Shown here in pieces: positions 1,478-57,085 of a DNA stretch of 64,000 nucleotides. The number at the start of each line of letters is the position of its first letter. Position 1 is the first letter of the stretch. The notes below the pieces were generated by a model. The model worked only from the letters and a program-made list of their open reading frames with translations. It was not told where the DNA came from and ran no database searches. Origin of the DNA: Actinomycetota bacterium (GTDB lineage Bacteria; Actinomycetota; Actinomycetes; Mycobacteriales; JACQDL01); NCBI GenBank assembly GCA_016201065.1, contig JACQDL010000057.1:1-64000 (forward strand), written 5' to 3'. A program made the position numbers and the translations under genes.

Positions 1478-1496
1478 TCCAGCTGTCACGCAGCAC

Positions 1497-39725: not shown

Positions 39726-39731
39726 CGCGCT

Positions 39732-40115: not shown

Positions 40116-40126
40116 AGGGGGCCGCC

Positions 40127-42021: not shown

Positions 42022-42035
42022 CACACCCGCCACGG

Positions 42036-42070
42036 CCGGCGGCGGCCCGCACGAAACGGTCCGCCGCCGG
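42036..42070 (+). terminator. Strong intra-cluster hairpin between hdrB1 and hdrA
   Basis: CCGGCGGCGG (42036-42045) pairs perfectly with CCGCCGCCGG (42061-42070) over a 15-base loop. It lies in the largest gap within the core genes (142 bases). It may lower read-through, stabilise the upstream mRNA, or mark processing, so that HdrC1/B1 and the downstream subunits are made in different amounts. There is no T tract. Confidence 0.55.
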
Positions 42071-42163
42071 GTCGGTTTCAGACAACACAGCAGCCATCTC
42101 CCGGCTGCGCCCGACCGGAGGGCGCGGCCGGTATGCCCCCACGTCGCCAGAACGAGGTAGAAG

Positions 42164-43249
42164 ATGCCATCCGACACCGTTGCTGTCATCGGCGGCGGAC
42201 CCGCGGGTCTGCGTGCCGCCCAGACCATCGCTGAGCTCGGTCACCGGGTCGTGCTGATCGAACAGCACCACGAGCTGGGCGGTCGGCCGATTCAGGAGAA
42301 CTACGCCGGGATCACACCGCACGGAGAGCCCGCCGAGCCGCTGCTGCGCCGGATGGCCGAGCTGGTCACCACCAACCCGCTCGCCGAGGTCCGGCTGTCC
42401 ACCGAGGTGATCGGCGTCCGCGGCGAGCCCGGGGACTTCACGCTGACCCTGGAGTCGGTGGCCGGCACCGAGACGCTCGATGTCGGCGCCGCGGTGCTGG
42501 CAACCGGTTTCCAGCACTTCGACCCGGGCCGGGAGACCCAGATGTACGGCTACTACGAGTTCCCCGACGTCATCGCGCTGCAGGACCTGGAGGGGATGCT
42601 CAAGGAACACAAGGTGGTGCGCCCCTCCAACGGCGAGACCCCGAAGAAGCTGTGTTTCGTCCAGTGCGTTGGCAGCCGTGACCGGCACATCGGCAACGAG
42701 TACTGCTCGAAGGTCTGCTGCGGTGTCGCCTCCAAGGAGGCGATCGAGGTCCGTCAGCTGCTGCCGGACTGCCAGGTCTACATCTTCTACATCGACATGC
42801 GGATGTACGGCTACTGGGAGAGCCAGATCTACTGGCCGGCCCAGGAGAAGCACCACGTGCAGTACGTCAAGGGGATCATCACCGAGGTGCTGCCCAAGGG
42901 CGACAAGCTGATCGTCCGCGGCGAGGACACCACCATGGGGCGGCCGATGGAGCTGGCGATGGACATGGTCGTGCTGTCGGTCGGGATGGAGCCGTCGGCC
43001 GGCACCCGCAAGATGTCCCGGCTGTTCGGGGTCGCCCAGAACAAGTACGGCTTCGTGCGTGCCGCCAGCAGCCCGCTGGACCCGGTCTCCACCAGCCGGG
43101 ACGGCATCTACGCCTGCGGCGCGGCGCTCGGCCCGGCCGACCTGGAGGACGCCGTCTCCTCCGGCTCGAACGCCGCGACCAAGGCGATCTCGTTCATCCG
43201 CACCCGCAACGCCGTGGCCGAGGGCCGCGACGCAGTGGTCACGGGCTGA
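42164..43249 (+). CDS. shdrA: sHdrA-like flavoprotein
   Basis: A 361-residue FAD protein. The dinucleotide fold starts at [20 protein letters not shown], and ATG 42164 has a GAGG site. An atypical iron-sulfur insert has Cys in KKLCFVQCVGSRDRHIG and EYCSKVCCGVASKEAIEV. The C-terminal FAD part is MVVLSVGMEPSAGTRKMSRL and DGIYACGAALGPADLEDAVS. Its length is that of the compact sHdrA and not the much longer methanogen HdrA. It would accept electrons from the Hdr subunits and hand them on. Confidence 0.9.
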   Translation: MPSDTVAVIGGGPAGLRAAQTIAELGHRVVLIEQHHELGGRPIQENYAGITPHGEPAEPLLRRMAELVTTNPLAEVRLSTEVIGVRGEPGDFTLTLESVAGTETLDVGAAVLATGFQHFDPGRETQMYGYYEFPDVIALQDLEGMLKEHKVVRPSNGETPKKLCFVQCVGSRDRHIGNEYCSKVCCGVASKEAIEVRQLLPDCQVYIFYIDMRMYGYWESQIYWPAQEKHHVQYVKGIITEVLPKGDKLIVRGEDTTMGRPMELAMDMVVLSVGMEPSAGTRKMSRLFGVAQNKYGFVRAASSPLDPVSTSRDGIYACGAALGPADLEDAVSSGSNAATKAISFIRTRNAVAEGRDAVVTG

Positions 43250-43262
43250 GCGGGGCCGCCTG

Positions 43263-43994
43263 ATGTCCCCCGGCCCCGTCGTCGACACCGTCACCGCGGA
43301 GGAGTTCCTCCGGGAGGTGACGACCCAGGTCGCCCCGGACGAGCTGCGTGCGGTCGCGGTCGACCTGACGCGCAAGTCCGCCGCGATGCGGGAGCTGGTC
43401 GGTGACGATCCGGCCGCGATGGACCGGGACGCCCTGCGCGGCCTGCTGCGCCGCTGCTTCTCCACCCGGCGGCACGCCGACAGCATCCTTGGCGCAATCG
43501 GCGTGCCGACCCTCGCCGCCGCCGTGGCCGACCTGCTCGACGGGCCGGCCGGGCTGGCGACCCGGTTCGATGCCTTCTCGTCCGTCGTCGCCCCGGCCCC
43601 GGCCGGCGGGTTCGACCTGCCCGGCGAGCTGCTGCACTTCCTGCAGCCCGACCGGTACTGGTTGTGGACCCGCTGGGTCTGGGACCCGGACAACGAGACC
43701 GGCGCGCTGCGGCTGGTCACGATGGACGAGGTCGACCTGTACGGCAGCGACCGGGGCGAGACCTATCTCCAGGTCGGTCAGGCCATGGCCTTCGTCGAAC
43801 AGACCGGGAAGGCCGCCGGATTCACCGGGATGGGGGCCGGCCTGTTCGGCGCCGATGTCTTTCTCGCCTCCGTATACGCGATCTACCTACATACCGTGCT
43901 GGGAATGCGCATGACACAGGAGTTCACTCGGCTCGCCCCCCCGGTGGGCGAGCTTGTCCGTCGGTTGCTCGGCGTCTACCACAGGGAGGACTGA
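43263..43994 (+). CDS. sHdr-associated 'Hyp' protein
   Basis: A 243-residue soluble protein from ATG 43263. It has no metal-binding Cys. The middle contains LLHFLQPDRYWLWTRWVWDP and LVTMDEVDLYGSDRGETYLQ, and the end AGLFGADVFLASVYAIYLHT. A conserved hypothetical gene in this position, between hdrA and hdrC2, is a standard member of sHdr core clusters, and its protein is regarded as part of the complex. The Trp/Tyr-rich core suggests a binding pocket, which is inference. The role is unknown. Confidence 0.75.
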   Translation: MSPGPVVDTVTAEEFLREVTTQVAPDELRAVAVDLTRKSAAMRELVGDDPAAMDRDALRGLLRRCFSTRRHADSILGAIGVPTLAAAVADLLDGPAGLATRFDAFSSVVAPAPAGGFDLPGELLHFLQPDRYWLWTRWVWDPDNETGALRLVTMDEVDLYGSDRGETYLQVGQAMAFVEQTGKAAGFTGMGAGLFGADVFLASVYAIYLHTVLGMRMTQEFTRLAPPVGELVRRLLGVYHRED

Positions 43995-43998
43995 CCTC

Positions 43999-45297
43999 AT
44001 GCCCATCTCCGGGAAGAAGGTCGACCCGACAGTCGTGGAGAAGGACGTCGCCACCGTCCGCTCCACCATCAGTGGCCGGGAGGTTGAGCTTCCGGCCATG
44101 TGGAACCGGATGTTCGAGCCCCGGGTGCTCACCGAGACCAGCGCCGAAGGCTTCGAGAAGCTCAACGCCCTTCCGGGGGCGGAGTCGCTGGAATGGTGCT
44201 ACGGCTGCGGTAAGTGCGTGCCGGTCTGCCCCGTCGACCTCGTCGGCGAGTACGGCCCGCGCAAGCTGCACCGCAAGGTGCAGACCGGCACCGACCTGCT
44301 CGCCGACCCCGGGACGTGGCTGTGCACCACGTGTGCGAACTGCCTGCGGGTGTGCCCGAAGGAGGTCGACATGATCCAGATCATGCCGGCCGTCCGGGAG
44401 GCGGCGATCCAGGAGGGGAACGTCCCGGCCGAGCTGCAGACCGTCTTCGAGAGCACCTTCCGGTACGGCAACGCGCTGGGCGCCAACCCGCGCCGCCGCG
44501 CCGCGTGGACCCGCGACTCCGGCATCCACGTCCGCGTGCTGGCCGACGACCCGCACCCGGTCGACGTTCTCTTCTACGTCGAGGACTACTGGAGCTACCA
44601 CCCCCGCGGCCAGCAGGCCGCGAAGGCGTTCGTCCGGATCATGCACTCCCTCGGCGTCGACTTCGCGATCCTCGGCGCCGAGGAGAAGACGATCGGCGAC
44701 TCGCAACGTCTCGCCGGCGAGCGCGGTCTGTTCGACTCCCTCGTCGAGCAGGTCAGCGCGACCCTGGAGCGGTACGAGTTCAACCGGATCGTCACCCCGG
44801 ACCCGCACGCCTACAACGCCCTGATCAAGGAGTACCCCAAGCGGGGCCACACCTACGACGTGCTGCACTACACCCAGCTCCTCGCACCGCTGATCCCCAA
44901 GATGCACTGGAGCGGCACGATCGAGGCCAAGGTCACCTTCCACGACCCCTGCTACCTGGGCCGGCACAACGGGGAGTACGACGCCCCCCGGAAGCTGCTG
45001 CAGGCCATCCCCGGCCTGGAGCTGGTCGAGATGGGGCGGTGCAAGGAGACCGCGTACTGCTGCGGCGGCGGTGGCGGCGGGATGTGGCTGGACAGCTTCA
45101 CCCGCGACTACACCTCCGAGCGGCTGTCCGAGCGGCGCGTGCGCGAGGCGGTGGAGTACGGCGCGGACATCCTCGCGGTCTGCTGCCCGTATGAGGTGTC
45201 GCGGTTCGAGGACGCAGCGAAGTCGACCGGCAACGAGGACCTCCTGGTCCGCGACATTGCCGAGCTCATCGACGCGGCGATGGGCCATGGCGAGTAG
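43999..45297 (+). CDS. Fused sHdrC2-B2-like iron-sulfur/CCG protein
   Basis: A 432-residue protein that joins an HdrC part to an HdrB part. Two ferredoxin motifs lie at about residues 72-125 (CYGCGKCVPVCP and CTTCANCLRVCP). A first CCG-like repeat at about 190-280 has lost its cysteines (VEDYWSYHPRGQ, EEKTIGD, TPDPHAYN). The second repeat is intact (FHDPCYLGRHNGEYD, CKETAYCCGGGGGGMW, AVCCPYEVSRF). In many sHdr clusters C2 and B2 are separate genes. ATG 43999 follows the Hyp gene by four bases, and the end overlaps the first ligase gene by 11 bases. Confidence 0.85.
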   Translation: MPISGKKVDPTVVEKDVATVRSTISGREVELPAMWNRMFEPRVLTETSAEGFEKLNALPGAESLEWCYGCGKCVPVCPVDLVGEYGPRKLHRKVQTGTDLLADPGTWLCTTCANCLRVCPKEVDMIQIMPAVREAAIQEGNVPAELQTVFESTFRYGNALGANPRRRAAWTRDSGIHVRVLADDPHPVDVLFYVEDYWSYHPRGQQAAKAFVRIMHSLGVDFAILGAEEKTIGDSQRLAGERGLFDSLVEQVSATLERYEFNRIVTPDPHAYNALIKEYPKRGHTYDVLHYTQLLAPLIPKMHWSGTIEAKVTFHDPCYLGRHNGEYDAPRKLLQAIPGLELVEMGRCKETAYCCGGGGGGMWLDSFTRDYTSERLSERRVREAVEYGADILAVCCPYEVSRFEDAAKSTGNEDLLVRDIAELIDAAMGHGE

Positions 45298-46300
45298 CCG
45301 CCCGCGGCTACGCGTGCTCGACTTCGGCACGGTCAGCCCGCTGCGCAGCCAGACCCTCTGGCACGCCTTGGGCTACGGCGAGACCGGGTCGGCGGCGACG
45401 CTGTCGTTCGCGCGGCCACAGTCGCCCTACGTCTGCCTGGGTCTCCACCGCAACGCGGAGGAGCTCGACAGCGTGGCGGTGGACCGGTACCAGCTGCCGG
45501 TCTACCGCCGGATGGTCGGGGGCGGGCCGGTGTACCTCGACCCCGACCAGCTCTTCTTCCAGATCTCGCTGCCCGTCTCGCAGGTACCGCCACGCCGCAG
45601 CCAGGCCCTTGCCGAGCTGCTCGCGCCCGCCGTCCGGGCGCTGGTCCGGCTCGGCGTGCCGGCGGTGCTCGACGAGCACGGGGAGATCAGCGTCGACGGC
45701 CGGAAGGTGTGCGGGCACGGTGCCGGGCAGATCGAGGACACCGTGCTCGTGGTCGGCAACCTGATCACCGGCTTCGACCACGAGCGTGCGGCGGCCGTGC
45801 TGCGAGTCTCCTCGCCCGCGACCCGGGCCGAGGTGCTGCGGTTGATGCGCCGGTACGTCGCCGCGACGCCCGTCGACCCGAACGCGTGGCGCCAGGCGAT
45901 GGTCGAGGAGTACGCGGCGCAGCTCGGCGCGGACACGCTGCCCGGCCGGCTGGACACCGACGAGCAGGCGGCAGTCCACCGGCTGGACGCGCTGTTCACC
46001 TCCGCGGAGTGGCTCCAGGGCACGCCACGGCCGGCCAAGCCGGTCCGCACCATCAAGATCCGGGCCGGCGTGTGGGTCCACGAATGGGACCACCCCGACG
46101 CGTGCACGGTGCTCAGCATCGCCGACGGCAAGGTCGACAACGTCCTCGTCGAGCCGCGCGGCGACCGCACCCCCACGCCCGCGTTGACCAGCCTGGTCGG
46201 CGCCGCCGTCGACGACGCACGAACCGCACTCAGCGCCGCCGCCACCGCCCCGCTGGCGGCGGCGCTGGCGGCCACCCAGCCAGGACAGGTGAGCGCATGA
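45287..46300 (+). CDS. Lipoate-protein ligase-like enzyme 1
   Basis: A 337-residue LplA/LipB-fold protein. It starts at ATG 45287 inside the end of the HdrC2-B2 gene. Motifs: PYVCLGLHRNAEELDSVAVD, YRRMVGGGPVYLDPDQLFFQ (the RRxxGGGxV lipoyl/AMP loop) and ISVDGRKVCGHGAGQIEDTV with the conserved Lys of the ligase active site. A C-terminal domain (RTIKIRAGVWVHEWDHPDAC, SIADGKVDNVLVEPR) resembles LplB. Clusters with LbpA carry dedicated ligases (sLpl type) for octanoyl or lipoyl transfer, and this is one candidate. Confidence 0.82.
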   Translation: MASSRPRLRVLDFGTVSPLRSQTLWHALGYGETGSAATLSFARPQSPYVCLGLHRNAEELDSVAVDRYQLPVYRRMVGGGPVYLDPDQLFFQISLPVSQVPPRRSQALAELLAPAVRALVRLGVPAVLDEHGEISVDGRKVCGHGAGQIEDTVLVVGNLITGFDHERAAAVLRVSSPATRAEVLRLMRRYVAATPVDPNAWRQAMVEEYAAQLGADTLPGRLDTDEQAAVHRLDALFTSAEWLQGTPRPAKPVRTIKIRAGVWVHEWDHPDACTVLSIADGKVDNVLVEPRGDRTPTPALTSLVGAAVDDARTALSAAATAPLAAALAATQPGQVSA

Positions 46301-46776
46301 CCAGCGAGAACACCCTCCACAACGACGAGCTGCTCGTTGCCGGGTTCCCGGTCCGGTCGGACCGGTACTACGACCGGGACAACCACGTCTGGTTGCTGCC
46401 GATGCCCGACGGGCGGGTCCGGATCGGCCTTGACGCACTGAACGTCGAGACGACCGGCACCCTGGCCGGCCTCGGCTTCCTGCCGGTCGGCAGCGTGCTG
46501 CGGCGCGGCGGGACCTACGGCAGCCTGGAGGCCGCGAAGTACGTCGGTCCGCTGCTGACCCCCATCTCGGGGATCTTCGCCGCCGGCAACGAGGCGGTGC
46601 TCGCCGAGCCGGGCCTGGTCACCGCCGATCCCTACGGTGCGGGCTGGCTTGCAGAGCTCGAGCCGACCGACTTCGACGCCGAGCTGCCGCTGCTGCTGCA
46701 CACCGAGGCCGAGCTGCGCAGCTGGTTCAGCGCGACGGTCACCGACTACCGGTCCCGGGGACTGATCGCCGAATGA
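46297..46776 (+). CDS. lbpA: Lipoate-binding protein 1 (GcvH-like LbpA)
   Basis: A 159-residue GcvH-fold protein with the modified-lysine hairpin GSLEAAKYVGPLLTPISG, Lys81 being the lipoylation site. The rest of the fold is RDNHVWLLPMPDGRVRIGLD and VTADPYGAGWLAELEPTDFD. LbpA proteins are distinct from glycine-cleavage H proteins and carry sulfur intermediates for sHdr. Here the site has LEAAK where the two paralogues at 54283 and 54722 have VESGK and VESAK. It overlaps both neighbours by four bases, between a ligase and a radical SAM gene. Confidence 0.9.
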   Translation: MTSENTLHNDELLVAGFPVRSDRYYDRDNHVWLLPMPDGRVRIGLDALNVETTGTLAGLGFLPVGSVLRRGGTYGSLEAAKYVGPLLTPISGIFAAGNEAVLAEPGLVTADPYGAGWLAELEPTDFDAELPLLLHTEAELRSWFSATVTDYRSRGLIAE

Positions 46777-47768
46777 CCACGGGCACCCAGGACGGGCTCA
46801 GCACGCACACGGCCGACCCCGCCGCGACCTACTTCGGGTACGACGTCATCGACTTCTACGCCCCCGGGCTGAAGCGGTGGCAGACCAGCGAGTGGACGCC
46901 GACCAACCCCAAGCGGTTCCTGCCGGTGTCGGTGACCGGTTCCGCGTGCGCGCTCAGCTGTGACCACTGCCAGTCCAACGTGCTGCACGGGATGGCCAGC
47001 GTGGGCACCGGCGAGGACCTGTTCACTGTCGCCAGCCGGCTGCACGCGCAGGGCAGCAAGGGGCTGCTGGTCTCCGGCGGTTCGACCCGGACCGGTGGCG
47101 TGCCGCTGCTGCCGCACCTGGCGCACGTGCCGCGCATCCGGGACGAGCTGGGCATGAGCGTCGTCGTGCACTCCGGCGTCGTCTCGCCGAAGCTCGCGAT
47201 GGCACTGGCCGACGCCGGCGTCGATGGCGTCATGCTCGACATCATCGGCGCCGAGGAGACGATCCGGGACGTCTACCACCTCGACCTCACGCCGGCCGAC
47301 TTCGACACCTCGCTGGGGTTGCTCGCCGACAACGGGCTGCGGATCATCCCGCACATCGTGCTCGGGCTGCACTACGGGAAGTTCCTCGGCGAGCACAACG
47401 CGCTGGAGATGCTGCTCAGGCACCCGGTGAGCACACTGATCCTGGTCGTGCTGGTGCCGCTGGTCGGCACCCCCATGGCCCACCTGCCCCCGCCGCCGAA
47501 CGACGAGGTCATCTCCTTCTTCGGCACCGCCCGGCAGGCCGCGCCGCAGCTGCCGATCAACCTCGGCTGCGCCCGCCCGATGGGCGAGGCAAAGCTGGAG
47601 CTGGACCACGCCGCCGTCGACCTCGGCCTCAACGGCATCGCCTACCCGGCCGACGGCGTGATCGAGTACGCCGCCACGAAGGGGCGCACGCCGCGCCTGT
47701 ACGAGTACTGCTGCTCGCTGACGTGGGCGGGCGACGAGAACGCCTACGACCGGGTCGAGGTGGGCTAG
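46773..47768 (+). CDS. Radical SAM protein, LipS1-like lipoyl synthase component
   Basis: A 331-residue radical SAM enzyme. The cluster motif is SACALSCDHCQSNVLHGM (CX3CX2C), followed by a GGS-type SAM turn in GLLVSGGSTRTGGVPLLPHL. Barrel segments include VDGVMLDIIGAEETIRDVYH and GLRIIPHIVLGLHYGKFLGE. Canonical LipA has extra N-terminal CX4CX5C ligands for an auxiliary cluster, which I do not see. It resembles instead the split LipS1/LipS2 type, which inserts two sulfurs into octanoyl-LbpA. It ends one base into the next gene. Confidence 0.8.
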   Translation: MTTGTQDGLSTHTADPAATYFGYDVIDFYAPGLKRWQTSEWTPTNPKRFLPVSVTGSACALSCDHCQSNVLHGMASVGTGEDLFTVASRLHAQGSKGLLVSGGSTRTGGVPLLPHLAHVPRIRDELGMSVVVHSGVVSPKLAMALADAGVDGVMLDIIGAEETIRDVYHLDLTPADFDTSLGLLADNGLRIIPHIVLGLHYGKFLGEHNALEMLLRHPVSTLILVVLVPLVGTPMAHLPPPPNDEVISFFGTARQAAPQLPINLGCARPMGEAKLELDHAAVDLGLNGIAYPADGVIEYAATKGRTPRLYEYCCSLTWAGDENAYDRVEVG

Positions 47769-48904
47769 TGGCCGACACGGTCGCCTTCCGGCTGCTCGTC
47801 GACGACGACGTCGACGCGGCGGCCGGCCTGGCCGTGGACGAGGCGCTGATGGCCGGCTGTGCCCGCGACGCCGACCCACCCCGCCCCACCCTGCGGCTGT
47901 ACACCTACCGCAGCCACAGCGCGCTCGTCGGGCGGTACCAGAGCCTCGCCGGCGAGCTGGATCTGGACCGGTGCCGGGAGACCGGCACCGGGGTCGGTCG
48001 GCGCCCGACCGGCGGCGGTGCCATCGTCATGGGGCGCGACCAGCTCGGCGTCGCGCTCATCGTGCCGGCACCACCGCGTCCGCCCCGGCAGCTGCTGCGT
48101 GAGCTGTCCGCCGGGGTGCTCGCCGGGCTCGCCGGGCTGGGGGTCCCCGCCGAGTTCGGCGGCAAGAACGACCTGCTCGTCAACGGACGCAAGATCGCCG
48201 GGCTCGGCATGTACACCGACGGCTCGGGTGCGGTGCTCTTCCACGCCAGCGTCCTGGCGGACCTGGACATCGACTTCATGCTCCAGGTGTTGAACATCCC
48301 GGCCGCCAAGCTCGCCAGGCACGGTGCGTCCGCCGTTGCCCAGCGGGTGACCACGGTGACCCGGGAGACCGGTCAGCGGCACTCCGGGGCGGGCATCCGC
48401 TCCGCCATCGCGGACGGGTTCACCGAAACGCTCGGCGTGCGGCTGGAGCGTGGGGAGCTCACCTCGGCGGAGACCGCCGAGGCGGAACGCCTCATCCACA
48501 CCCGCTACGCCGACCCGGAGTGGCTGTACCCCAAGGCTGCGGCACCCGACGGCACCGGCACCGCCCGGTTCCGTTCTCCCGACGGACCGGTGCGGGTCTT
48601 CGTCGCCGCCCAGGGGTCGTTGATCAAGAGCGTCCTGTTCACCGGAGACTTCACCGCACCGCCCGACGCGCTCACCCGGCTGGAGTCGACCCTGCGCTGG
48701 CAGCGGCTCGACCCGGCCGCGGTGGAGCGCGCGGTACGGGAGTCGACCGGCGGCACGGGCACGGACGGTTGGCACTCCCCAGCGGAGGTGGTGACGGCGG
48801 TGCTGACCGCCGGCGCCAGAGCGCTCGAACACGCCACGGCACACCCCCATCGAGCGACGGGCTCCTGCTACTTCCCCGACACCCCATCGCGAGACGCCGA
48901 ATGA
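47768..48904 (+). CDS. Lipoate-protein ligase-like enzyme 2 with C-terminal accessory domain
   Basis: A 378-residue protein from GTG 47768. The LplA-type catalytic domain has YTYRSHSALVGRYQSLAGEL, GVGRRPTGGGAIVMGRDQLG and GGKNDLLVNGRKIAGLGMYT with the active-site Lys. From about residue 275 an LplB-like domain follows (FRSPDGPVRVFVAAQGSLIK, FTGDFTAPPDALTRLESTLR). This matches the fused sLpl(AB) arrangement. It sits between the two radical SAM genes with one-base and four-base overlaps, so the four assembly genes form a tight unit. Confidence 0.85.
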   Translation: MADTVAFRLLVDDDVDAAAGLAVDEALMAGCARDADPPRPTLRLYTYRSHSALVGRYQSLAGELDLDRCRETGTGVGRRPTGGGAIVMGRDQLGVALIVPAPPRPPRQLLRELSAGVLAGLAGLGVPAEFGGKNDLLVNGRKIAGLGMYTDGSGAVLFHASVLADLDIDFMLQVLNIPAAKLARHGASAVAQRVTTVTRETGQRHSGAGIRSAIADGFTETLGVRLERGELTSAETAEAERLIHTRYADPEWLYPKAAAPDGTGTARFRSPDGPVRVFVAAQGSLIKSVLFTGDFTAPPDALTRLESTLRWQRLDPAAVERAVRESTGGTGTDGWHSPAEVVTAVLTAGARALEHATAHPHRATGSCYFPDTPSRDAE

Positions 48905-50016
48905 GAGACACGATGGCCAGGACAAGCTTGCCGCTGCTGTCGGCCCGCCCGGAGGCCGACCCGGAGACGGCACAGATCAGCCCGGACTGGGTCCGGATCT
49001 CCCTCGCCAGCGCCTACGCGCTGCGGTTCCAGTCCGGACGGTTCACCCGGGACTTCGACTTCGGCGGCATCAACCTGCTGCTGAGCTACGACAACGGGTG
49101 CCTGTCCGACTGCGGCTACTGCGGCCTGGCCCGGACCCGACCGGGCGAGTACGCGGACAAGTCGTTCATCCGCGTCGACTGGCCGCTGGTGCGCACCGAC
49201 GACCTCGTGGAGCGGATGGCGAAGTACGAGTCGAAGCTGACCCGGCTGTGCATCTCGATGGTGACCCACGGCCACGCCTACGCCGACACCTGCGACATCA
49301 CGGCGCGGATCGCGGCCCGGGTCCGCACCCCGCTGTCGATCCTGGTCGCGCCTCCGACGCTCAACCGGGAGCGGCTGGAGACGTTCCGGAAGCTCGGCGT
49401 CGACATGATCGGCATCGGGCTGGACGCGGTCACCGAGGACCTGTTCCGGGCGATCCGCACCGACGTGCCGGCCGGCGGCCTGAGCTGGGAGAAGTACTGG
49501 GAGGTGGTGGACGACGCCCGCGACATCTTCGGACCGTGGAAGGTCAACTGCCACACCCTGGTCGGGCTCGGTGAACGCGACACCGACATGATCGACATCT
49601 TTGTCCGGCTGCGCGACCGGGAGATCTTCTCCTACCTGTTCTGCTTCAACCCGGAGCCGGACTCCCGGATGGCCGACCACGAGAAGTCCACGGTGCAGCG
49701 CTGGCGGCGGATCCAGCTCGCCCGGCACCTCGTCGAGACCGAGGGGTACGGCCCTCACGACTTCAGCTTCGACGAGGATGGGATGCTCCTGGACGTTCAC
49801 GGCGAAGCGCCGCAGATCGACGCCGCGGTCGAGAGCGGGATCCCGTTCCTGACCAACGGCTGCCCGGGCGAGAACGGCGAGCCCGGTTGCACACGCCCCT
49901 ACGGGTCCTACCGACCCTCCGAGGGCTTCCGTGACTACCCCTTCCCCCCCAACGCCGCCGACCTCGTCGAGATCCGGGACCAGCTCGCGCTGCCCCGGCT
50001 GTCGACCGGCCGGTAA
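48901..50016 (+). CDS. Radical SAM protein, LipS2-like lipoyl synthase component
   Basis: A 371-residue radical SAM protein with CX3CX2C in NGCLSDCGYCGLARTRPG. The barrel continues through LTRLCISMVTHGHAYADTCD, VDMIGIGLDAVTEDLFRAIR and VNCHTLVGLGERDTDMIDIF. A C-terminal Cys pair in LTNGCPGENGEPGCTRPYGS could ligate an auxiliary cluster. BioB-like features are expected of LipS2. ATG 48901 overlaps the ligase stop. With the LipS1-like protein it would replace LipA for the LbpA carriers. Confidence 0.8.
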   Translation: MRDTMARTSLPLLSARPEADPETAQISPDWVRISLASAYALRFQSGRFTRDFDFGGINLLLSYDNGCLSDCGYCGLARTRPGEYADKSFIRVDWPLVRTDDLVERMAKYESKLTRLCISMVTHGHAYADTCDITARIAARVRTPLSILVAPPTLNRERLETFRKLGVDMIGIGLDAVTEDLFRAIRTDVPAGGLSWEKYWEVVDDARDIFGPWKVNCHTLVGLGERDTDMIDIFVRLRDREIFSYLFCFNPEPDSRMADHEKSTVQRWRRIQLARHLVETEGYGPHDFSFDEDGMLLDVHGEAPQIDAAVESGIPFLTNGCPGENGEPGCTRPYGSYRPSEGFRDYPFPPNAADLVEIRDQLALPRLSTGR

Positions 50017-50025
50017 GGAGACCCG

Positions 50026-50793
50026 ATGCGTATCGCTGTCATTCTCAAGGCGGTACCAGATCTCGTCGAGGAGATGGAGCTCACCTCCGACGGGACAGAC
50101 CTGGACCGCGAGTACCTGAAGTTCGTCACCAACGAGTGGGACGAGCAGGCGCTCGAGGAGGCGCTGCTGCTCAAGGACAGCGACGGTGCGGAGGTCGTGG
50201 CCGTCGGTATGGCCGACGATCCCGACATCGAGCAGGCGCTGTACTCGGCCGTCGCCAAGGGTGCCGACCGGGCGGTGACGATCGCCGGGGCGACCGGCGT
50301 CGACACCCGCAGCCGGGCCGCCGCCGTGGCCGCCTGGCTGAAGGACAACCCGGCCGACCTCGTGCTCAGCGGGGTCCAGGCACCCGACGACCTGGACGGC
50401 CAGCTCCCGGCGGCGCTCGGCGCCGCGCTCGGCCTGCCGCACGTGTCGGTCGTGGTCTCGGTGGCCCTGGACGGTGCAGCGGCGATCGTCCGGCAGGAGT
50501 TCAGCGGCGGCCGGGCCGCGGACCTGAACGTCACGCTCCCGGCCGTGCTCGGGATCCAGGTGGCCCGGCAGGCGCCGCGGTACGCCCCGGTCACCCGGGT
50601 CCGGCAGGTCATGCAGTCCACCACCATCGACGAGGCGTCGGTGGCGGTGGACGAGGCCGCCGCCGGGATCCGGGTACGCCGGATGTACCCGCCCGAGAAG
50701 ACAACGCATGCGGAGATGATCGACGGCAGCCCGGCCGAGGTCGCCGCGCGGATCGTCGAGCTGCTCCGCAGCCGCAGCCTGGTGAAGGGGTGA
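50026..50793 (+). CDS. etfB: Electron transfer flavoprotein beta subunit (EtfB)
   Basis: A 255-residue EtfB. Features: MRIAVILKAVPDLVEEMELT, the FVTNEWDEQALEEALLLKD loop, GVQAPDDLDGQLPAALGAAL (the AMP/FAD-binding DxxTxxV-like segment, here DDLDGQLP) and ATRVRQ-like end VTRVRQVMQSTTI. A strong AAGGAG site precedes ATG 50026. It pairs with EtfA five bases downstream. In this setting it would move electrons from the lipoyl-bound chemistry or from HdrA to the membrane protein encoded next. Confidence 0.9.
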   Translation: MRIAVILKAVPDLVEEMELTSDGTDLDREYLKFVTNEWDEQALEEALLLKDSDGAEVVAVGMADDPDIEQALYSAVAKGADRAVTIAGATGVDTRSRAAAVAAWLKDNPADLVLSGVQAPDDLDGQLPAALGAALGLPHVSVVVSVALDGAAAIVRQEFSGGRAADLNVTLPAVLGIQVARQAPRYAPVTRVRQVMQSTTIDEASVAVDEAAAGIRVRRMYPPEKTTHAEMIDGSPAEVAARIVELLRSRSLVKG

Positions 50794-50798
50794 TGGGC

Positions 50799-51761
50799 AT
50801 GAGCGGGAACGTTCTCGTGCTGGCCGAGCAGAGCGACGGCCAGGTCAGCGACGCGACCTACGAGCTGCTGGGCAAGGGGCGCGAGCTCGCCACGGCGTGG
50901 GGCGGCACCCTGGAGGTCGCGACCTTCGGCCCGACCGACGTCTCCGGGCAGCTCGGCATCGCCGACGCGGTCGTCCGGGTCGACCACCCGGCGCTGGCCA
51001 GCTACACCGCGGACGCCTACGAGCAGGTGCTGCTGCAGCTGCTCACCGAGCGGGCACCACGGCTGCTGCTGCTGTCCAACGACACCGTCGGGCTGGACCT
51101 TGGCACCGCGCTGGCGGTCTCCTGGGATGCCTCCCAGGTCGCCTACGTGATGGCGCTGGCGGTCGACGGCGACACGCCGGTGGCCACGGCGCAGATCCTC
51201 GGCGGCAAGATCCTCGCCGAGGTCGAGATCACCGCACCGCGCGGCATCTGCACGGTGATCGGCGGGTCGTTCCCGCTCGCCGCCGGCAAGGGCGACGGGA
51301 CGCCGGAGATCGTCACGGCGGCCGCCCCCGGCGGGCTGGACGCACCACGGATCAGTCTCCGCGCGATCGTCGAGCCGGACACCAGCGACGTCGACATCAC
51401 CGCCGCGGACCTGCTGGTGTCCGCGGGCCGGGGGGTGGGCTCCAAGGATGACCTGGAGGTCGTCCAGGAGCTTGCCGACGCGCTCGGCGCGCCGCTGTCG
51501 GCCTCCCGTCCGGTCATCGACGCCGGATGGATGCCGAAGACCCGGCAGGTCGGGAAGTCGGGGCTGAAGGTGAAGCCCAAGGCCTACCTGTCCTTCGGGA
51601 TCTCCGGCGCGCCGGAGCACCTGGAGGGCATGCGGGACGCGGAGCTGATCATCGCGTGCAACACCGACGCGAACGCGCCCATCTTCGACGTGGCCCACTA
51701 CGGCACCACCGTCGACCTGTTCGACCTGGTTCCGGCGATCGTGGAGGAGATCGGCGGGTGA
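50799..51761 (+). CDS. etfA: Electron transfer flavoprotein alpha subunit (EtfA)
   Basis: A 320-residue EtfA. The FAD domain is clear at residues about 205-295: DLLVSAGRGVGSKDDLEVVQ, LSASRPVIDAGWMPKTRQVG, KAYLSFGISGAPEHLEGM and IIACNTDANAPIFDVAHYGT. ATG 50799 has AAGGGG at good spacing; ATG 50793, overlapping the EtfB stop, is also possible. It overlaps the membrane oxidoreductase gene by four bases, so the three proteins should be made together. Confidence 0.92.
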   Translation: MSGNVLVLAEQSDGQVSDATYELLGKGRELATAWGGTLEVATFGPTDVSGQLGIADAVVRVDHPALASYTADAYEQVLLQLLTERAPRLLLLSNDTVGLDLGTALAVSWDASQVAYVMALAVDGDTPVATAQILGGKILAEVEITAPRGICTVIGGSFPLAAGKGDGTPEIVTAAAPGGLDAPRISLRAIVEPDTSDVDITAADLLVSAGRGVGSKDDLEVVQELADALGAPLSASRPVIDAGWMPKTRQVGKSGLKVKPKAYLSFGISGAPEHLEGMRDAELIIACNTDANAPIFDVAHYGTTVDLFDLVPAIVEEIGG

Positions 51762-53962
51762 GACACACGCTGGCCAGTGGGGAGACCCGGCAGGTCTTCG
51801 AGGGGATCGGCGCGGTCGGGACGGCGGCGTTCTACGTCCTGTCCATCGTGACCGTCGCGGCGTTCCTGATCGGATCATGGCGCCGGACGCAGAAGTACCG
51901 TCGAGGGCGACCGGCGGGTCGTGGTGGGACGATCCGCCGGGCCCTGCTGGTCAGCCCGCTCGCGTTGCGGCGACGGCCGGATACCGGCTCGGTGGCCCAG
52001 GTGGCGACCAACGCCACGATAGGGCGGCGCAACAGGGGCGTCGGTATCGCGCACTTCATGGTGTTCTGGGGCTTCATCACCCTTTTTATCGGCACCGTGA
52101 TCCTGACCATCGACTTCGACATCGTCCGGCACGTGAGCAAGTGGTTCTGGGGTCACGAGGACAGCTTCTTCACCGGCACCTTCTACCTGGGGTACTCGGT
52201 GGTGCTGGACACGATGGGCGTGGCCACCGTGCTCGGGCTCACCTACCTCGCGCTACGCCGCGGGGTCCGGCCGCCGGCCCGGCTGGACTACAGCCGGGCC
52301 GAGCAGCCGGCGGGTGGCTACTCCCGGAAGGCTCTGGTCCTCGGGGACTGGATGTTCATCGGCCTGTTCGCCGGCATCCTGATCACCGGCTTCCTGGGCG
52401 AAGCGGTCCGGATCGTCGCGAACAAGTTCCCGGAGTTCGAGATCTGGTCCCCGGCGGGGTGGCTGCTGGCCCGCGGTTTCGAGGCCGTCGGCCTGTCCGC
52501 GGGTGCGGCGGCGACCACGCACACGGTGGTCTGGTGGAGCCACGCGTTCCTCGCGCTCGGGTTCGTCATCTACATCCCGTACTCGAAGGCGATGCACATG
52601 CTCGTTGACGGGGTCAACCTGCTGGCCCACGACAAGAACGCCACCCGGGCACTGCCGGCCCCCCCGGCCGACGCCGACCACATCGGGTACCGGGAGCTGG
52701 CCGACTTCACCTGGAAGGAGCTGCTCGACTTCGACGCCTGCACGAAGTGCGGGCGCTGCCACGAGGTGTGCCCGGCGCGGACCGGCGGCGCTCCGCTGTC
52801 GCCCCGCGACCTCATCCTCGACCTGCGGCAGTGGGCCGACCTGCAGACCGGCGGGAAGACCCTGCTCGACCGGGAGCAGCGGCCGGACGCGACCGGTCCG
52901 CTGCAGAACGGGCAGGCTGCGGTCGCCGGCACGGTGATCCCGGCCAAGACGCTGTGGTCCTGCACCACCTGCATGGCCTGCGTCGAGGCGTGCCCGGTCG
53001 GGATCGAGCACGTGCCGACGATCGTCCAGATGCGACGCAGCCTGGTCGACGCCGGCACGATGGACCCGACCCTCCAGCAGGCGCTGCAGAACCTGGCCAG
53101 CCAGGGCAACTCCTTCGGCAAGTCCGCCCGGATGCGGGCCCGCTGGACGAAGGGGCTGGAGACCCCGATCAAGGACGCTCGCAAGGAGCCGGTGAAGTAC
53201 CTGTGGTTCGTGGGCGACTACGCGTCCTTCGACGAGCGGCTACAGGACAACTCGCGGCTGCTGGCCACCCTGCTCACCAAGGCGGGGGTGGACTTCGGGA
53301 TCCTCTACGAGGGCGAGCGCAACGCCGGCAACGACGTGCGGCGGGTCGGCGAGGAGGGGCTGTTCGAGATGCTCGCCGAGCAGAACATCAAGTCGCTGGA
53401 GGCGGCGCAGTTCGAGGAGATCTTCACGACCGACCCGCACTCGCTGAACACGCTGCGCAACGAGTACCCGGCGCTGGGCGCCACGTACAAGGTCTGGCAC
53501 TACACCGAGCTGCTGGTGCACCTGGTGGAGTCCGGCGCGTTGCCGGTGAAGCCGCTCAACCTCCGGGTGACCTACCACGACCCGTGCTACCTGTCGCGGT
53601 ACAACGGCGTCATCGAGGCGCCGCGGACGCTGCTGGCGGCGCTCGGCTGCGAGCTGGTCGAGATGCCGCGCAACAAGACCAACAGCTTCTGCTGCGGTGC
53701 CGGTGGCGGCCGGATCTGGATGGACGACAGCGTCCTGTCGGAGCGGCCGAGCGAGAACCGGATCAAGGAGGCGGCCGCGCTGGAGGACGTCGGGCACTTC
53801 GTGGTGTCCTGCCCGAAGGACATGACGATGTACTCCGACGCCGCCAAGACCACCGGCCACGACGGCACGCTGACCGTGCTCGACATCGTCCGGCTGGTCG
53901 ACCAGGCCCTGGTCCGGCCACCGGCGGAGCCCGCGACCGATGACGTGGCGGTGCCGGTGTGA
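51758..53962 (+). CDS. Membrane iron-sulfur/CCG protein (EMO-type EtfAB:menaquinone oxidoreductase)
   Basis: A 734-residue fusion. Five membrane segments in the first 300 residues resemble NarI/DUF3483 heme-b or quinone domains, with His in AHFMVFWGFITLFIG and TTHTVVWWSHAFLALGFVIY. Two ferredoxin motifs follow (CTKCGRCHEVCPA and CTTCMACVEACPV). Then come an HdrD-like pair of CCG repeats. The first is degenerate (FVGDYASF, GERNAGND, TTDPHS). The second is intact (YHDPCYLSRYNGVIE, SFCCGAGGGRIW, VVSCPKDMTMY). It would oxidise reduced EtfAB and pass electrons to menaquinone. GTG 51758 overlaps etfA by four bases. Confidence 0.87.
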   Translation: MRHTLASGETRQVFEGIGAVGTAAFYVLSIVTVAAFLIGSWRRTQKYRRGRPAGRGGTIRRALLVSPLALRRRPDTGSVAQVATNATIGRRNRGVGIAHFMVFWGFITLFIGTVILTIDFDIVRHVSKWFWGHEDSFFTGTFYLGYSVVLDTMGVATVLGLTYLALRRGVRPPARLDYSRAEQPAGGYSRKALVLGDWMFIGLFAGILITGFLGEAVRIVANKFPEFEIWSPAGWLLARGFEAVGLSAGAAATTHTVVWWSHAFLALGFVIYIPYSKAMHMLVDGVNLLAHDKNATRALPAPPADADHIGYRELADFTWKELLDFDACTKCGRCHEVCPARTGGAPLSPRDLILDLRQWADLQTGGKTLLDREQRPDATGPLQNGQAAVAGTVIPAKTLWSCTTCMACVEACPVGIEHVPTIVQMRRSLVDAGTMDPTLQQALQNLASQGNSFGKSARMRARWTKGLETPIKDARKEPVKYLWFVGDYASFDERLQDNSRLLATLLTKAGVDFGILYEGERNAGNDVRRVGEEGLFEMLAEQNIKSLEAAQFEEIFTTDPHSLNTLRNEYPALGATYKVWHYTELLVHLVESGALPVKPLNLRVTYHDPCYLSRYNGVIEAPRTLLAALGCELVEMPRNKTNSFCCGAGGGRIWMDDSVLSERPSENRIKEAAALEDVGHFVVSCPKDMTMYSDAAKTTGHDGTLTVLDIVRLVDQALVRPPAEPATDDVAVPV

Positions 53963-54279
53963 ACCGGCCCGCCACCTCGTCGGGTGGGACAGGTGCGGCG
54001 ATGACCTGTCCCTGGTGCGGGATCGAGGTACCCCTTCGGTCCCTGCACGCGCACCTGTCGGACGAGCACGGCGACGTGGTCGGCATCGTCGGGCAGGACG
54101 ACAGGCAGTTCTACGAGGTGCGCTGCCCGTCCTGCGACGCGGGGTACCGCAAGCCCATCAAGAAGAGCGGTCGTGACCCGGACTTCCTCGCCGAGTTCGA
54201 CCGCGAGGTGCGCATGGTCGCCCTGGACATGTTGGTCAATCATCTGTTGGCGGAACATCAGACCGCCGTGGAAGGGTGA
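53959..54279 (+). CDS. Small zinc-finger protein
   Basis: A 106-residue protein from GTG 53959; ATG 54001 is an alternative. It contains MTCPWCGIEVPLRSLHAHLS plus a further His in DEHG, a classic C2H2-like pattern. A second Cys pair lies in YEVRCPSCDAGYRKPIKKSG. The end is helical (MVALDMLVNHLLAEH). It is enclosed between the membrane oxidoreductase and lbpA2 with a four-base overlap, so it is a real member of the operon. Role unknown; it could be an adaptor or maturation factor. Confidence 0.7.
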   Translation: MNRPATSSGGTGAAMTCPWCGIEVPLRSLHAHLSDEHGDVVGIVGQDDRQFYEVRCPSCDAGYRKPIKKSGRDPDFLAEFDREVRMVALDMLVNHLLAEHQTAVEG

Positions 54280-54282
54280 AGG

Positions 54283-54720
54283 ATGGCAACGGCCCGAAAC
54301 TGCAACCTGCCGGACGACCTGCACTACGTGATCGAAAAGCACGTGTGGGCCCGCACCGACGGTGACCTGGTCACGGTAGGCATCACCGACGTCGCCCAGA
54401 ACCTGGCCAAGACGCTCATCGCGGTGACCCCGAAGAAGGTCGGGCGGGCGGTCCGCAAGGGCCAGAACGTCGCCACCGTCGAGAGCGGCAAGTTCGTCGG
54501 ACCCGTGCCGGCGCCGGTGAGCGGCGAGATCGTCGAGGTCAACCAGGCCGTCATCGACCGGCCCAGCGCGGTCAACGACGACCCGTACGGCGCCGGCTGG
54601 ATCGCCCGGCTGCGCCCGACGGACTGGGCGGGCGAGTCAGGCGACCTCGCCACCGGACCGGAGGGGCTGGCGGCATACGAGCAGTTCCTCGAGCGCGAGG
54701 GAATCTCCTGCGAGGGGTGA
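54283..54720 (+). CDS. Lipoate-binding protein 2 (GcvH-like LbpA)
   Basis: A 145-residue GcvH-fold protein with the lipoyl hairpin TVESGKFVGPVPAPVSGEIV, Lys70. Flanking segments DDLHYVIEKHVWARTDGDLV, ITDVAQNLAKTLIAVTPKKV and NDDPYGAGWIARLRPTDW match the H-protein/LbpA fold. The VESGKFVGP form is close to LbpA of sulfur oxidisers and unlike ESVKAVSD of glycine-cleavage H protein. It is one base from lbpA3. Confidence 0.9.
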   Translation: MATARNCNLPDDLHYVIEKHVWARTDGDLVTVGITDVAQNLAKTLIAVTPKKVGRAVRKGQNVATVESGKFVGPVPAPVSGEIVEVNQAVIDRPSAVNDDPYGAGWIARLRPTDWAGESGDLATGPEGLAAYEQFLEREGISCEG

Positions 54721-54721
54721 G

Positions 54722-55177
54722 ATGACCGACCGCGTCTGGAACGGGTGCGTCGTGCCGGATGACCGGCTCTACGACGTCGACATGCATGTCTGGGTCATGC
54801 TCGACGGCGACGAGGCTGTGCTCGGCATGACCGACGTGGCCCAGTCGATGGGCGGCCGGATCGTCCAGGTGACCTGGAAGCGCCCCGGGCGACAGCTCAC
54901 CCGGGGCCGGCCGGTGGCGGTCGTCGAGAGCGCGAAATGGGTCGGGCCGTTCCCCACCCCGCTGTCCGGAGAGCTCGTCGCGGTGAACACCGAAGGCTTC
55001 AACCGCGACCCGAACATCGCCAACCGGGATCCCTACCAGGCCGGCTGGATGGCGCGGATCCGGCCACGCCATCTCGACGAGGAGCGGACGCACCTGGTCG
55101 ACGGCGTCCAGGCATACCAGCGCTACCAGAGGTTCATCAACGACAACGACATCCGCTGCTACCGGTGCGCGGACTGA
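54722..55177 (+). CDS. Lipoate-binding protein 3 (GcvH-like LbpA)
   Basis: A 151-residue GcvH-fold protein with AVVESAKWVGPFPTPLSGEL, Lys72 being the expected lipoyl site. It also has DVDMHVWVMLDGDEAVLGMT, DVAQSMGGRIVQVTWKRPGR and RDPYQAGWMARIRPRHLDEE. It ends in a Cys pair (DNDIRCYRCAD) that the other two paralogues lack. The third copy in one cluster suggests carriers with separate partners. Confidence 0.88.
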   Translation: MTDRVWNGCVVPDDRLYDVDMHVWVMLDGDEAVLGMTDVAQSMGGRIVQVTWKRPGRQLTRGRPVAVVESAKWVGPFPTPLSGELVAVNTEGFNRDPNIANRDPYQAGWMARIRPRHLDEERTHLVDGVQAYQRYQRFINDNDIRCYRCAD

Positions 55178-55212
55178 CCCCAGCTGATCGACGGAACGAA
55201 GAGGAGGCCGGT

Positions 55213-55359
55213 ATGGACGGTGCCCCAGAAGGGACCCGACCCCCGTCCGGCACGTCCCGAATCCCACGACCGTGGTGGCTGCTGCTGATCGTGCTCTTCG
55301 GGGCCTACCTGCTATTCCGCCTGGGCCAGGCGGTCATCTGGCTCGCCCATCTCGCCTGA
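55213..55359 (+). CDS. 48-residue single-span membrane protein
   Basis: A strong GAGGAGG site precedes ATG 55213. The product has a proline-rich head (PEGTRPPSGTSRIPRPWW) and one membrane helix (LLLIVLFGAYLLFRLGQAVI). Position inside the cluster, directly after lbpA3 and just before a terminator-like hairpin, suggests it belongs to the system, perhaps recruiting soluble parts to the membrane. No homologue comes to mind. Confidence 0.6.
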   Translation: MDGAPEGTRPPSGTSRIPRPWWLLLIVLFGAYLLFRLGQAVIWLAHLA

Positions 55360-55387
55360 CCCCTGCCCGAACCAACGGGCAGGGTCA
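55357..55387 (+). terminator. Terminator-like hairpin after the small membrane protein
   Basis: TGACCCCTGCCCG (55357-55369) pairs with CGGGCAGGGTCA (55376-55387) over a six-base loop, with a single bulged C. It begins at the stop codon of the 48-residue gene. It should end or attenuate the long upstream transcript before the second DsrE gene. Confidence 0.7.
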
Positions 55388-55410
55388 CCCTCGTACAGCG
55401 GAGGTCTCCC

Positions 55411-55932
55411 ATGACAACGAACGACCGCAGCAACACCAGTCCCGGCGACCTGGATCGGGTCAAGCGGATGGCCATGGTCTGCTGGAGCAGCGACCTGGAC
55501 CGGGTCTGGCCGGTGCTCATCCTGGGCACGACCGCGGCAGCCTCCGGCATGGAGGTCGACATCTTCTTCACCTTCTGGGGCCTGCGCGTGCTGCAACGCA
55601 ACGACCGGCGCGTCACCGGCAGCAACTGGATGCAGAAGGCCGAGGCCCTCGTCGACCGGGGGGGCACCGACCACCTCAAGCTCGGCAAGATCCACTTCGG
55701 TGGTGCCGGCACCAAGATGATCCGGAAGCTGGCGGTGAACAACAAGGTCGCCTCCCCCACCGAGCTGCTCCAGATGGGGATGGACATCGGCGTCCGGCTG
55801 CATCCATGCCAGATGACCATGGACCTCTACGGGCTGACGCGGGAGGACTTCATCGACGGGGTGAACCCGTCGCTCGGTGCGGCGGCCTTCATGGAGATGG
55901 CTGCCGAGGCCGACGTCAGCTTCTTCATCTGA
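55411..55932 (+). CDS. DsrE/F/H-like sulfur-transfer protein (DrsE_2 type)
   Basis: A 173-residue protein of the second DsrE Pfam type. It has RMAMVCWSSDLDRVWPVLIL, GTTAAASGMEVDIFFTFWGL, the loop GGAGTKMIRKLAVNNKVASP and Cys133 in VRLHPCQMTMDLYGLTREDF, the position of the sulfur-binding Cys in DsrE2/DsrE4-like proteins. There is no membrane helix, unlike classical DsrE2. It differs strongly from the DsrE protein at 39732, so the cluster has two kinds of sulfur carriers besides TusA. Confidence 0.85.
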   Translation: MTTNDRSNTSPGDLDRVKRMAMVCWSSDLDRVWPVLILGTTAAASGMEVDIFFTFWGLRVLQRNDRRVTGSNWMQKAEALVDRGGTDHLKLGKIHFGGAGTKMIRKLAVNNKVASPTELLQMGMDIGVRLHPCQMTMDLYGLTREDFIDGVNPSLGAAAFMEMAAEADVSFFI

Positions 55933-55961
55933 ACCGCCACGACGGAGGGGTTGGGCCCACG

Positions 55962-56672
55962 GTGAGTGCGGCGACCGGCAACGACGAGCAGGCCATCGGT
56001 GTGCTCCTGACGGACGACCCGCTGGTCGTCCGTCAGCTCGGCACCGTGCTGGCGGGCGGGCGGCACCCGATCGACTGGGTCGGGTACGGCGTCGCGACCG
56101 CCCGGGGCCGCGATCCGCTGGTCGTGGTGGTCGACCTCGGTCGGGCCGACGGGATCGAGCTGGCGACGAGCGTGCGGCGGCAGTGGCCCCGGGCGCTCGT
56201 CGCCGGTTTCCTGGCGCTGCCCGACCAGGCGCTGTGGCTGTCCGGGCAGCGCGCCGGCTGTGACCTCGTGGTCAACCGCGGCGCGCTGGCCCGGCGGCTG
56301 CGGGAGCTGCTCGGCAGCCCGGATGGCCTGAGCCGGCGCACGTTCCCACTGCTGGCGGCGAACGACACGGCCGGGCGGCTCGGCTTCGTCGCCGCGGTGC
56401 CCGACACGCCCGTGGGGCCGGTCGCCGTCTACCAGATCGAAGGTCAGCTGTACGCCGCTGCCGACCGCTGCCCGCACGCGGGAGCCACGCTGTCAGCAGG
56501 TGTGCTTGACCACACGACCGTCACCTGCCCCCGGCACGGTAGTCAGTTCGACGTATGCTCAGGCCAGCGGCTGCGCGGCCCGGCGGACGACGACATCGCC
56601 GTCTACCCGGTGGTCGTCGAGGGCGGGCAGGTGCTGCTCGTCCTTGGTCAGAGCGTGGACCGAGAGGGTTGA
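55962..56672 (+). CDS. Rieske [2Fe-2S] protein with receiver-like N-terminal domain
   Basis: A 236-residue protein from GTG 55962. Residues about 8-120 look like a response-regulator receiver (IGVLLTDDPLVVRQLGTVLA, PLVVVVDLGRADGIELATSV), but the conserved Lys is not evident near CDLVVNRGALARR, so it may be a pseudo-receiver. Residues about 145-230 are a Rieske domain with CPHAGATLSAG and CPRHGSQFDVCSG, all four ligands present. Such ferredoxins supply or accept single electrons. The fusion is unusual. It is followed by the ArsR gene after five bases. Confidence 0.75.
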   Translation: MSAATGNDEQAIGVLLTDDPLVVRQLGTVLAGGRHPIDWVGYGVATARGRDPLVVVVDLGRADGIELATSVRRQWPRALVAGFLALPDQALWLSGQRAGCDLVVNRGALARRLRELLGSPDGLSRRTFPLLAANDTAGRLGFVAAVPDTPVGPVAVYQIEGQLYAAADRCPHAGATLSAGVLDHTTVTCPRHGSQFDVCSGQRLRGPADDDIAVYPVVVEGGQVLLVLGQSVDREG

Positions 56673-56677
56673 GGCGC

Positions 56678-57085
56678 ATGCCGAGCAAGACCAATGACAC
56701 ATCGGTCCAGCCCGCAGAGAGCCACCACGAGGACACGATCCGCGCACGCCCCGACGAACTGTACGAGCTGCACGCACGCATCTGCAAAGCCATCGCCGAC
56801 CCCAAGCGGCTGTGCATTCTCAACGAGCTGCGGGACGGTCCACGGTCGGTCGGTGAGATCGCCAGCGCACTGGGCTTCTCCCAGCCGAACACCAGCCAGC
56901 ATCTGGCCATCCTGCGCAGCCGCGGCATCCTGACCAGCTCCCGCTCCGGCCCGACGATCTACTACGCGCTGCGCACCACCAAGGTCATCGAAGCGGTGGA
57001 CCTGCTCCGGGAGTTCATGGCCGAGGTGCTCGGCGGAGGGGACAACCTCGACGCGGGCGTGCTCGAGGCGCGCGCCGGACGCTGA
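56678..57085 (+). CDS. ArsR-family repressor of the cluster
   Basis: A 135-residue winged-helix protein with the ArsR core: ICKAIADPKRLCILNELRDG, SVGEIASALGFSQPNTSQHL and ILTSSRSGPTIYYALRTTKV. Cys36 and Cys46 lie in the helix pair near the usual metal or persulfide sites. Persulfide sensors of the SqrR/BigR type pair one Cys here with a second near the C-terminus, which is absent. It ends the cluster and probably controls the promoter near 39392. Its own start has a GAGG site. Confidence 0.87.
   Translation: MPSKTNDTSVQPAESHHEDTIRARPDELYELHARICKAIADPKRLCILNELRDGPRSVGEIASALGFSQPNTSQHLAILRSRGILTSSRSGPTIYYALRTTKVIEAVDLLREFMAEVLGGGDNLDAGVLEARAGR

Follow-up and report, generated by a model that had tools for sequence, protein, structure and literature searches.

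Gene content of the type II sHdr locus

The DNA analyzed here (the window) is a stretch of 64,000 nucleotides, positions 1 to 64,000 of contig JACQDL010000057.1 from an Actinomycetota bacterium (GenBank assembly GCA_016201065.1). It carries a type II sHdr sulfur-oxidation locus at 39426 to 57085, within which three genes encode divergent GcvH-like lipoate-binding proteins (LbpA). Their open reading frames (ORFs), all on the forward strand, lie at 46297 to 46776 (copy 1, here LbpA-a; 159 amino acids), 54283 to 54720 (copy 2, LbpA-b; 145 amino acids), and 54722 to 55177 (copy 3, LbpA-c; 151 amino acids), where an earlier annotation made from the letters alone (the sequence-only reading) had placed them. 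The lipoyl lysines it predicted (K81, K70, and K72) fell in a single alignment column, within LEAAKYVGP, VESGKFVGP, and VESAKWVGP, respectively, and the Cys pair (CYRC) it noted in copy 3 was recovered in the C-terminal sequence IRCYRCAD (C146 and C149). Copy 1 contains no cysteine, copy 2 has C7 and C143, and copy 3 has C9 in addition to its terminal C146-x-x-C149.

All three copies matched GCV_H and GcvH profiles, at scores (47.3, 83.9, and 67.2 bits for copies 1, 2, and 3) below the TIGR00527 gcvH equivalog cut-off of 115.85 bits. Copy 2 exceeded the cut-off of the broader GcvH model NF002270 (127.8 against 117), and it should be borne in mind that an LbpA-b protein can be annotated as GcvH on this basis. 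AlphaFold2 models of copies 1 and 3 were confident H-protein-type folds (mean predicted local distance difference test scores of 95.0 and 92.9); the copy 3 model matched solved H proteins (best match, 1onl), with the CxxC tail as a low-confidence end.

The locus opens with genes for TusA (39426 to 39725) and a DsrE-like protein (39732 to 40115), both identified by profile matches and, like all genes given here with coordinates, on the forward strand up to and including the gene for DsrE2. These are followed by sHdrC1 (40127 to 40840; assigned from its location, its ferredoxin-type cysteines, and the gene order of related loci), sHdrB1 (40837 to 42021; profile and homology searches), sHdrA (42164 to 43249; a partial HdrA2-type match), and a conserved protein at 43263 to 43994, which was assigned to the sHdrH position by location only and for which no Pfam or NCBIfam match was found. 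The last evolves rapidly (median identity of 0.40 over 22 loci). At 43999 to 45297 lies what the sequence-only reading had called HdrC2-B2; it is one fused HdrC2-HdrB2 gene, the sHdrB3 of type II systems, as supported by a profile match and the type II definition (PMC11582611). LplX (45287 to 46300), a second LplA-family protein (PF21948) and candidate amidotransferase or dedicated ligase for LbpA-a, precedes copy 1. Copy 1 is followed by the radical-SAM lipoyl synthase subunit LipS1 (46773 to 47768; 216 bits with NF053742, just under the cut-off of 230), the sLpl(AB)-like lipoate:protein ligase Lpl2 (47768 to 48904), and the second radical-SAM subunit LipS2 (48901 to 50016; best match NF053743, 184 bits, under the cut-off of 270). 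Stop/start overlaps chain LplX through LipS2: the start of lbpA-a overlaps the lplX stop, and its end overlaps the lipS1 start (ATGA).

EtfB (50026 to 50793) and EtfA (50793 to 51761), both identified by profile matches, and an EMO-type membrane oxidoreductase with a membrane part and ferredoxin/CCG domains (51758 to 53962) come next. The order previously described, with copies 2 and 3 after the membrane oxidoreductase, stands with one refinement, in that a small ORF encoding two CCHH zinc-finger-like motifs (53959 to 54279) separates EMO from LbpA-b. Beyond LbpA-c are genes for a DsrE2-like protein (55411 to 55932; profile match), a Rieske protein, and an ArsR regulator. The Rieske protein (55962 to 56672) has a C-terminal Rieske ferredoxin-like domain, and its first ∼150 residues match no family.

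The cluster contains shdrC1, B1, A, H (by position only), fused B3, and etfAB, the gene set by which type II sHdr was defined (shdrC1B1AHB3-etfAB; PMC11582611). LipS1, LipS2, and an LplA-family ligase are co-encoded as in sLpl(AB)-LipS1/S2 assembly, the two LipS assignments being best matches below their cut-offs. The three copies are not in themselves new, because Group III clusters in which etfBA is accompanied by a pair or a trio of LbpA genes had been described for Actinobacteria and Firmicutes in 2018 (PMC6067878). The present gene set is that of the type II system (Group III of that paper; PMC11582611), including the fused HdrC2-B2, EtfBA, and multiple LbpA.

Three orthologous classes of LbpA

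Related loci were gathered via a LipS1 alignment (80 named loci, up to 10 kb either side), and further genomes, most of the comparison set being draft metagenome assemblies, were added via whole-genome searches; the latter correct for a bias toward proximity of LbpA-a and LipS1 that fetching by LipS1 creates by design. A tree of 184 GcvH-like proteins was built with type I and archaeal LbpA left out, using a quick method and Shimodaira-Hasegawa-like approximate likelihood ratio test (SH-aLRT) rather than bootstrap support. It resolved clade a with an SH-aLRT of 95 (75 assigned and 6 reassigned rows), clade b with 97 (43 rows), clade c with 99 (35 rows), and a canonical GcvH clade with 99 (14 rows). 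Clades b and c, together with related cysteine-bearing forms, grouped with an SH-aLRT of 98. The lipoyl lysine was kept in all 184 aligned proteins.

Cysteines followed the clades closely. The N-terminal Cys column was occupied in 0/81 class a, 41/41 class b, and 35/35 class c proteins and in 0/14 GcvH, and a Cys within the last twelve residues was found in 5/81, 39/41, and 35/35 of classes a, b, and c. A C-terminal CxxC was confined to class c (35/35, against 0/122 for a and b combined). Two cysteines, one near each terminus, are a property of copies 2 and 3 and neither of copy 1 nor of class a overall. Across the 29 loci with all three copies, class a evolved fastest (median pairwise identity of 0.42, compared with 0.60 for b and 0.51 for c). 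As judged from these alignments, the three copies represent three old orthologous classes with fixed differences in cysteines and gene linkage.

The text of PMC6067878 available to us gives the two cysteines as strictly conserved except in some archaea; here, copy 1 and 80 class a relatives lack the N-terminal one. The same text draws no class distinctions among the copies, and an earlier description elsewhere is possible. Copies 2 and 3 share two terminal cysteines with LbpA1 and LbpA2 of the type I organisms Thioalkalivibrio and Hyphomicrobium, which are GcvH-like, lipoylated, and essential for sHdr sulfur oxidation in Hyphomicrobium. Unlike LbpA1 and LbpA2, for which no conserved cysteine differences are reported, classes a, b, and c differ in cysteines, type I sequences being outside the present tree.

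One lineage inside clade a (f66) carries its own cysteine pair at other positions near the ends, and no sHdrB1 match was found for it. Class a relatives with a terminal cysteine pair of their own occur in five genomes (G554, G358, G649, G620, and G580; L035 and L037 to L040) with LipS1/S2 and a b-like LbpA and no sHdrB1 match; the gene content of these five suggests that the proteins may be lipoyl carriers serving another use.

Gene linkage sets the classes apart as well. The order lplX-lbpA-a-lipS1-lpl2-lipS2 and the block etfBA-EMO-zinc-finger-lbpA-b-lbpA-c recurred throughout Actinomycetota, and in Chloroflexota, Acidobacteriota, Bacteroidota, KSB1, and others the same parts were found rearranged, often without class c. 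The cultured actinobacterium Amycolatopsis acididurans (L043) is among the relatives that carry this cluster. LbpA-a was present in every type II genome examined, and class c was missing from many type II loci that retain a and b. In four genomes the lip module and LbpA-a lie apart from the hdr locus while LbpA-b/c remain with hdr-etf-EMO, about 97 kb away on a single contig in one (G370) and on other contigs in three (G663, G665, and G666). LbpA-a was located in the lip module in the 14 genomes scanned for every GcvH-like gene. It is not the glycine-cleavage H protein, because LipA, LipB, and a canonical GcvH exist besides in 14 of 14 genomes tested. Taken together, the sequences and gene neighborhoods compared give good support to a stable partition, in which one class is cysteine-free and linked to lipoate assembly and the remaining one or two carry cysteines and are linked to hdr/etf.

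The small zinc-finger-like gene was found in 26/26 loci with LbpA-c and in 1/10 without it (36 loci scored), and in some other phyla (L111, L112, and L121) it is found where class c is missing. Five bog and fen Acidimicrobiaceae loci (L060, L091, L094, L097, and L114) keep a and b with no LbpA-c between LbpA-b and dsrE and amount to natural class c deletions; the zinc-finger gene is likewise missing from four of them. Two readings were set aside. A LbpA-b-LbpA-c fusion in Aciditerrimonas (L100, 17454 to 18311) was rejected as proof of pairing, as its join is a run of undetermined residues (an assembly gap), and LbpA-a without sulfur oxidation, considered for L032, L076, L078, L085, L089, L095, and L098, was dropped because sHdrB1 sits elsewhere in each of these seven genomes.

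Covariation and the LplX protein

Mirror-tree partial correlations, from which the shared phylogenetic signal had been removed by regression, were calculated for 22 loci. LbpA-a covaried with LplX (0.48), Lpl2 (0.48), and LipS1 (0.30), and in these loci no positive link (at most 0.01) was identified between LbpA-a and HdrB1, HdrC2B2, Etf, or EMO. EtfB was the top partner of both LbpA-b (0.28) and LbpA-c (0.30), with b and c correlating at 0.21. Removal of the four split genomes lowered the values for LbpA-a with LplX and Lpl2 to 0.26 to 0.40, still the highest, and left EtfB first or second for b and c. The proposal in the sequence-only reading that the copies serve different partners gains support from three orthologous classes with differing cysteines, neighbors, and covariation. 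Its assignment of partners (HdrB1, HdrC2-B2, and EtfAB) found none as stated: the partial correlation of copy 1 with HdrB1 was −0.29, and the neighbors of copy 1 are lipoate-assembly enzymes.

LplX and Lpl2 are paralogues. In Lpl2 the ligase N-D (N134-D135) and Lys (K142) are nearly invariant. LplX retains the RR..GGG region and has invariant residues of its own; the residues that it has in place of the ligase N-D vary (HGEI in the window), and Lys140 is Lys in 63 and Arg in 10 of 73 orthologues. No strictly conserved Cys was found in the alignment of 73 LplX orthologues, a comparison that included no LipL or LIPT1 sequence, and a LipL-type acyl-cysteine mechanism was left without support. LplX scores split cleanly among 34 genomes (>240 bits in 23 and ≤162 bits in 11), a split noticed after the search and in genomes that were selected rather than random. 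An LbpA-a without the terminal Cys pair, together with at least one Cys-bearing LbpA, was present in all 23 LplX-bearing genomes and in 1 of the 11 lacking LplX (G301).

Stand-alone LplX-like proteins, with no LbpA or lipoate-assembly genes within the fetched stretches, were seen at C1:1023648 of G370 (L248) and in L243, L244, L246, and L247. LplX as a marker of sHdr only was rejected on account of f51 relatives, which lack nearby lipoate-assembly or LbpA genes, and of the second copy in G370. The family is wider than sHdr, since in a broader phylum sample relatives occur away from lipoate and LbpA genes.

Proposed division of labor among the copies

In the reading favored here, at a probability of about 0.5, the lipoyl-carrier job would be split among the three GcvH-like proteins, which are not equivalent, and LbpA-a would belong to the assembly side. 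LbpA-b and LbpA-c would be the working carriers on the sulfur and electron side, and their cysteines fit the role that PMC6067878 proposes for LbpA, that of a sulfur-binding carrier. Sulfane sulfur from TusA/DsrE would be passed to the lipoyl arm and terminal cysteines of LbpA-b/c and oxidized at sHdr, and the reduced arm would be re-oxidized via EtfAB-EMO with electrons entering the quinone pool; the CxxC tail may mark LbpA-c as a specialized second carrier. LbpA-a, cysteine-free and co-translated with lplX, lipS1, lpl2, and lipS2, would act in assembly, where Lpl2 would octanoylate it and LipS1/S2 would complete the lipoyl group, and it would be the likely source of that group for LbpA-b/c.

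A role of LplX in this transfer can be put forward only tentatively and is on balance doubtful. Under such a scheme type II sulfur oxidizers would have a dedicated lipoyl relay, apart from the LipA/LipB/GcvH pathway of the cell, in which Lpl2 octanoylates LbpA-a as a hub, LipS1/S2 convert the octanoyl to a lipoyl group, and LplX, as a new amidotransferase, passes it from LbpA-a to LbpA-b/c. Such hubs have precedent, since lipoate in Bacillus and humans is made on GcvH as the hub and then handed on by an LplA-family amidotransferase (PMC7253636). With the B. subtilis LipM-GcvH-LipL and human LIPT2-GCSH-LIPT1 relays the present operon shares an H-like protein, a loading enzyme, a lipoyl synthase, and a further LplA-family member (LplX, adjoining LbpA-a), and the cysteine-free LbpA-a resembles true GcvH in that respect. 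The relay suggested here would differ in being dedicated to sulfur oxidation and in using LipS1/S2 and an ATP-dependent ligase. The sLpl(AB)-LipS1/S2 pathway (PMC10332631) likewise has LipS1, LipS2, an sLpl-like ligase, and an acceptor protein in one operon, to which LplX and a cysteine-free acceptor are added here. No lipT-like gene was found at the lip module.

Several observations weigh against the favored reading. A hub is not a chemical necessity, because LbpA of type I organisms receives its modification straight from a single sLpl ligase (PMC10332631). The activity of LplX cannot be read from its sequence, given that it has no strictly conserved cysteine and that the ligase Lys is Arg in 10/73. 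One genome (G301) has classes a and b yet no LplX, and conversely LplX-like proteins occur without a nearby LbpA in f51 genomes and as the second copy in G370. Covariation rests on 14 to 22 loci, and genes that are linked or evolve fast may covary even if their products never meet; it is modest evidence, because certain other pairs scored as high or higher when the subset was smallest (14 loci).

In the main rival account, the same module would reflect two acceptor classes with two ligases. LbpA-a would then carry electrons or sulfur for the sHdr system in its own right, without the need for a cysteine; LplX would be its dedicated ligase, Lpl2 the ligase for b and c, and the place in the lip operon a matter of co-expression only. 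LplX adjoins and covaries with LbpA-a, has the LplA fold with an intact GGG motif and the Lys140 in most orthologues, and LbpA-a accompanies every type II genome examined. The account is nonetheless rather unlikely: LbpA-a covaries equally with Lpl2 and positively with none of Hdr, Etf, and EMO, its faster evolution than b and c is as expected with few sulfur-side contacts, and the LplX of the window has a degenerate ligase motif. The sequence-only reading had also raised a relay, taken here as a chain in which the three copies pass sulfur or electrons between HdrB1, HdrC2-B2, and EtfAB. Classes b and c do adjoin Etf/EMO and covary with EtfB, and exchange of lipoyl groups between E2 domains is discussed in PMC6067878, but this chain is improbable with a class a that lacks conserved cysteines and any positive link to HdrB1 or HdrC2-B2, and three steps cannot be the general arrangement, because many type II loci have a and b with no class c. 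A relay that hands the lipoyl group from copy 1 to copies 2 and 3 is possible and better motivated than one that moves sulfur through the whole set. Simple duplication, whether for dosage or to build a larger complex, an idea raised for proteobacterial LbpA1/LbpA2 in PMC6067878, would suit the common fold and lysine motif and the adjacent, related b and c; deep supported clades in distant lineages and fixed cysteine differences oppose interchangeable copies and make it very improbable.

PMC6067878 leaves the reason for two different LbpAs unexplained and gives LbpA1 and LbpA2 as without conserved differences in obviously functional residues. Among the type II copies the differences are fixed even between distant lineages, so that the question becomes experimentally specific, and some genes called LbpA may not encode sulfur carriers. 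If the relay proposed for LbpA-a were true, a single cell would have two lipoate systems independent of each other, the second built around a hub of its own, and LplX would be explained.

The genome from which the window derives has five GcvH-like genes, namely the three copies, a fourth LbpA-like gene (contig C21), and a canonical GcvH (contig C6) that falls in the GcvH clade. The fourth protein (G000 C21:6423–6941; L132, 6423 to 6941) has an N-terminal Cys and a CVHC tail, with a small thioredoxin-like protein (CSGC) encoded after it. This LbpA-like and thioredoxin-like pair also adjoins the sHdr locus in a Nocardioidaceae genome (L051, about 1033 to 1889, reverse strand).

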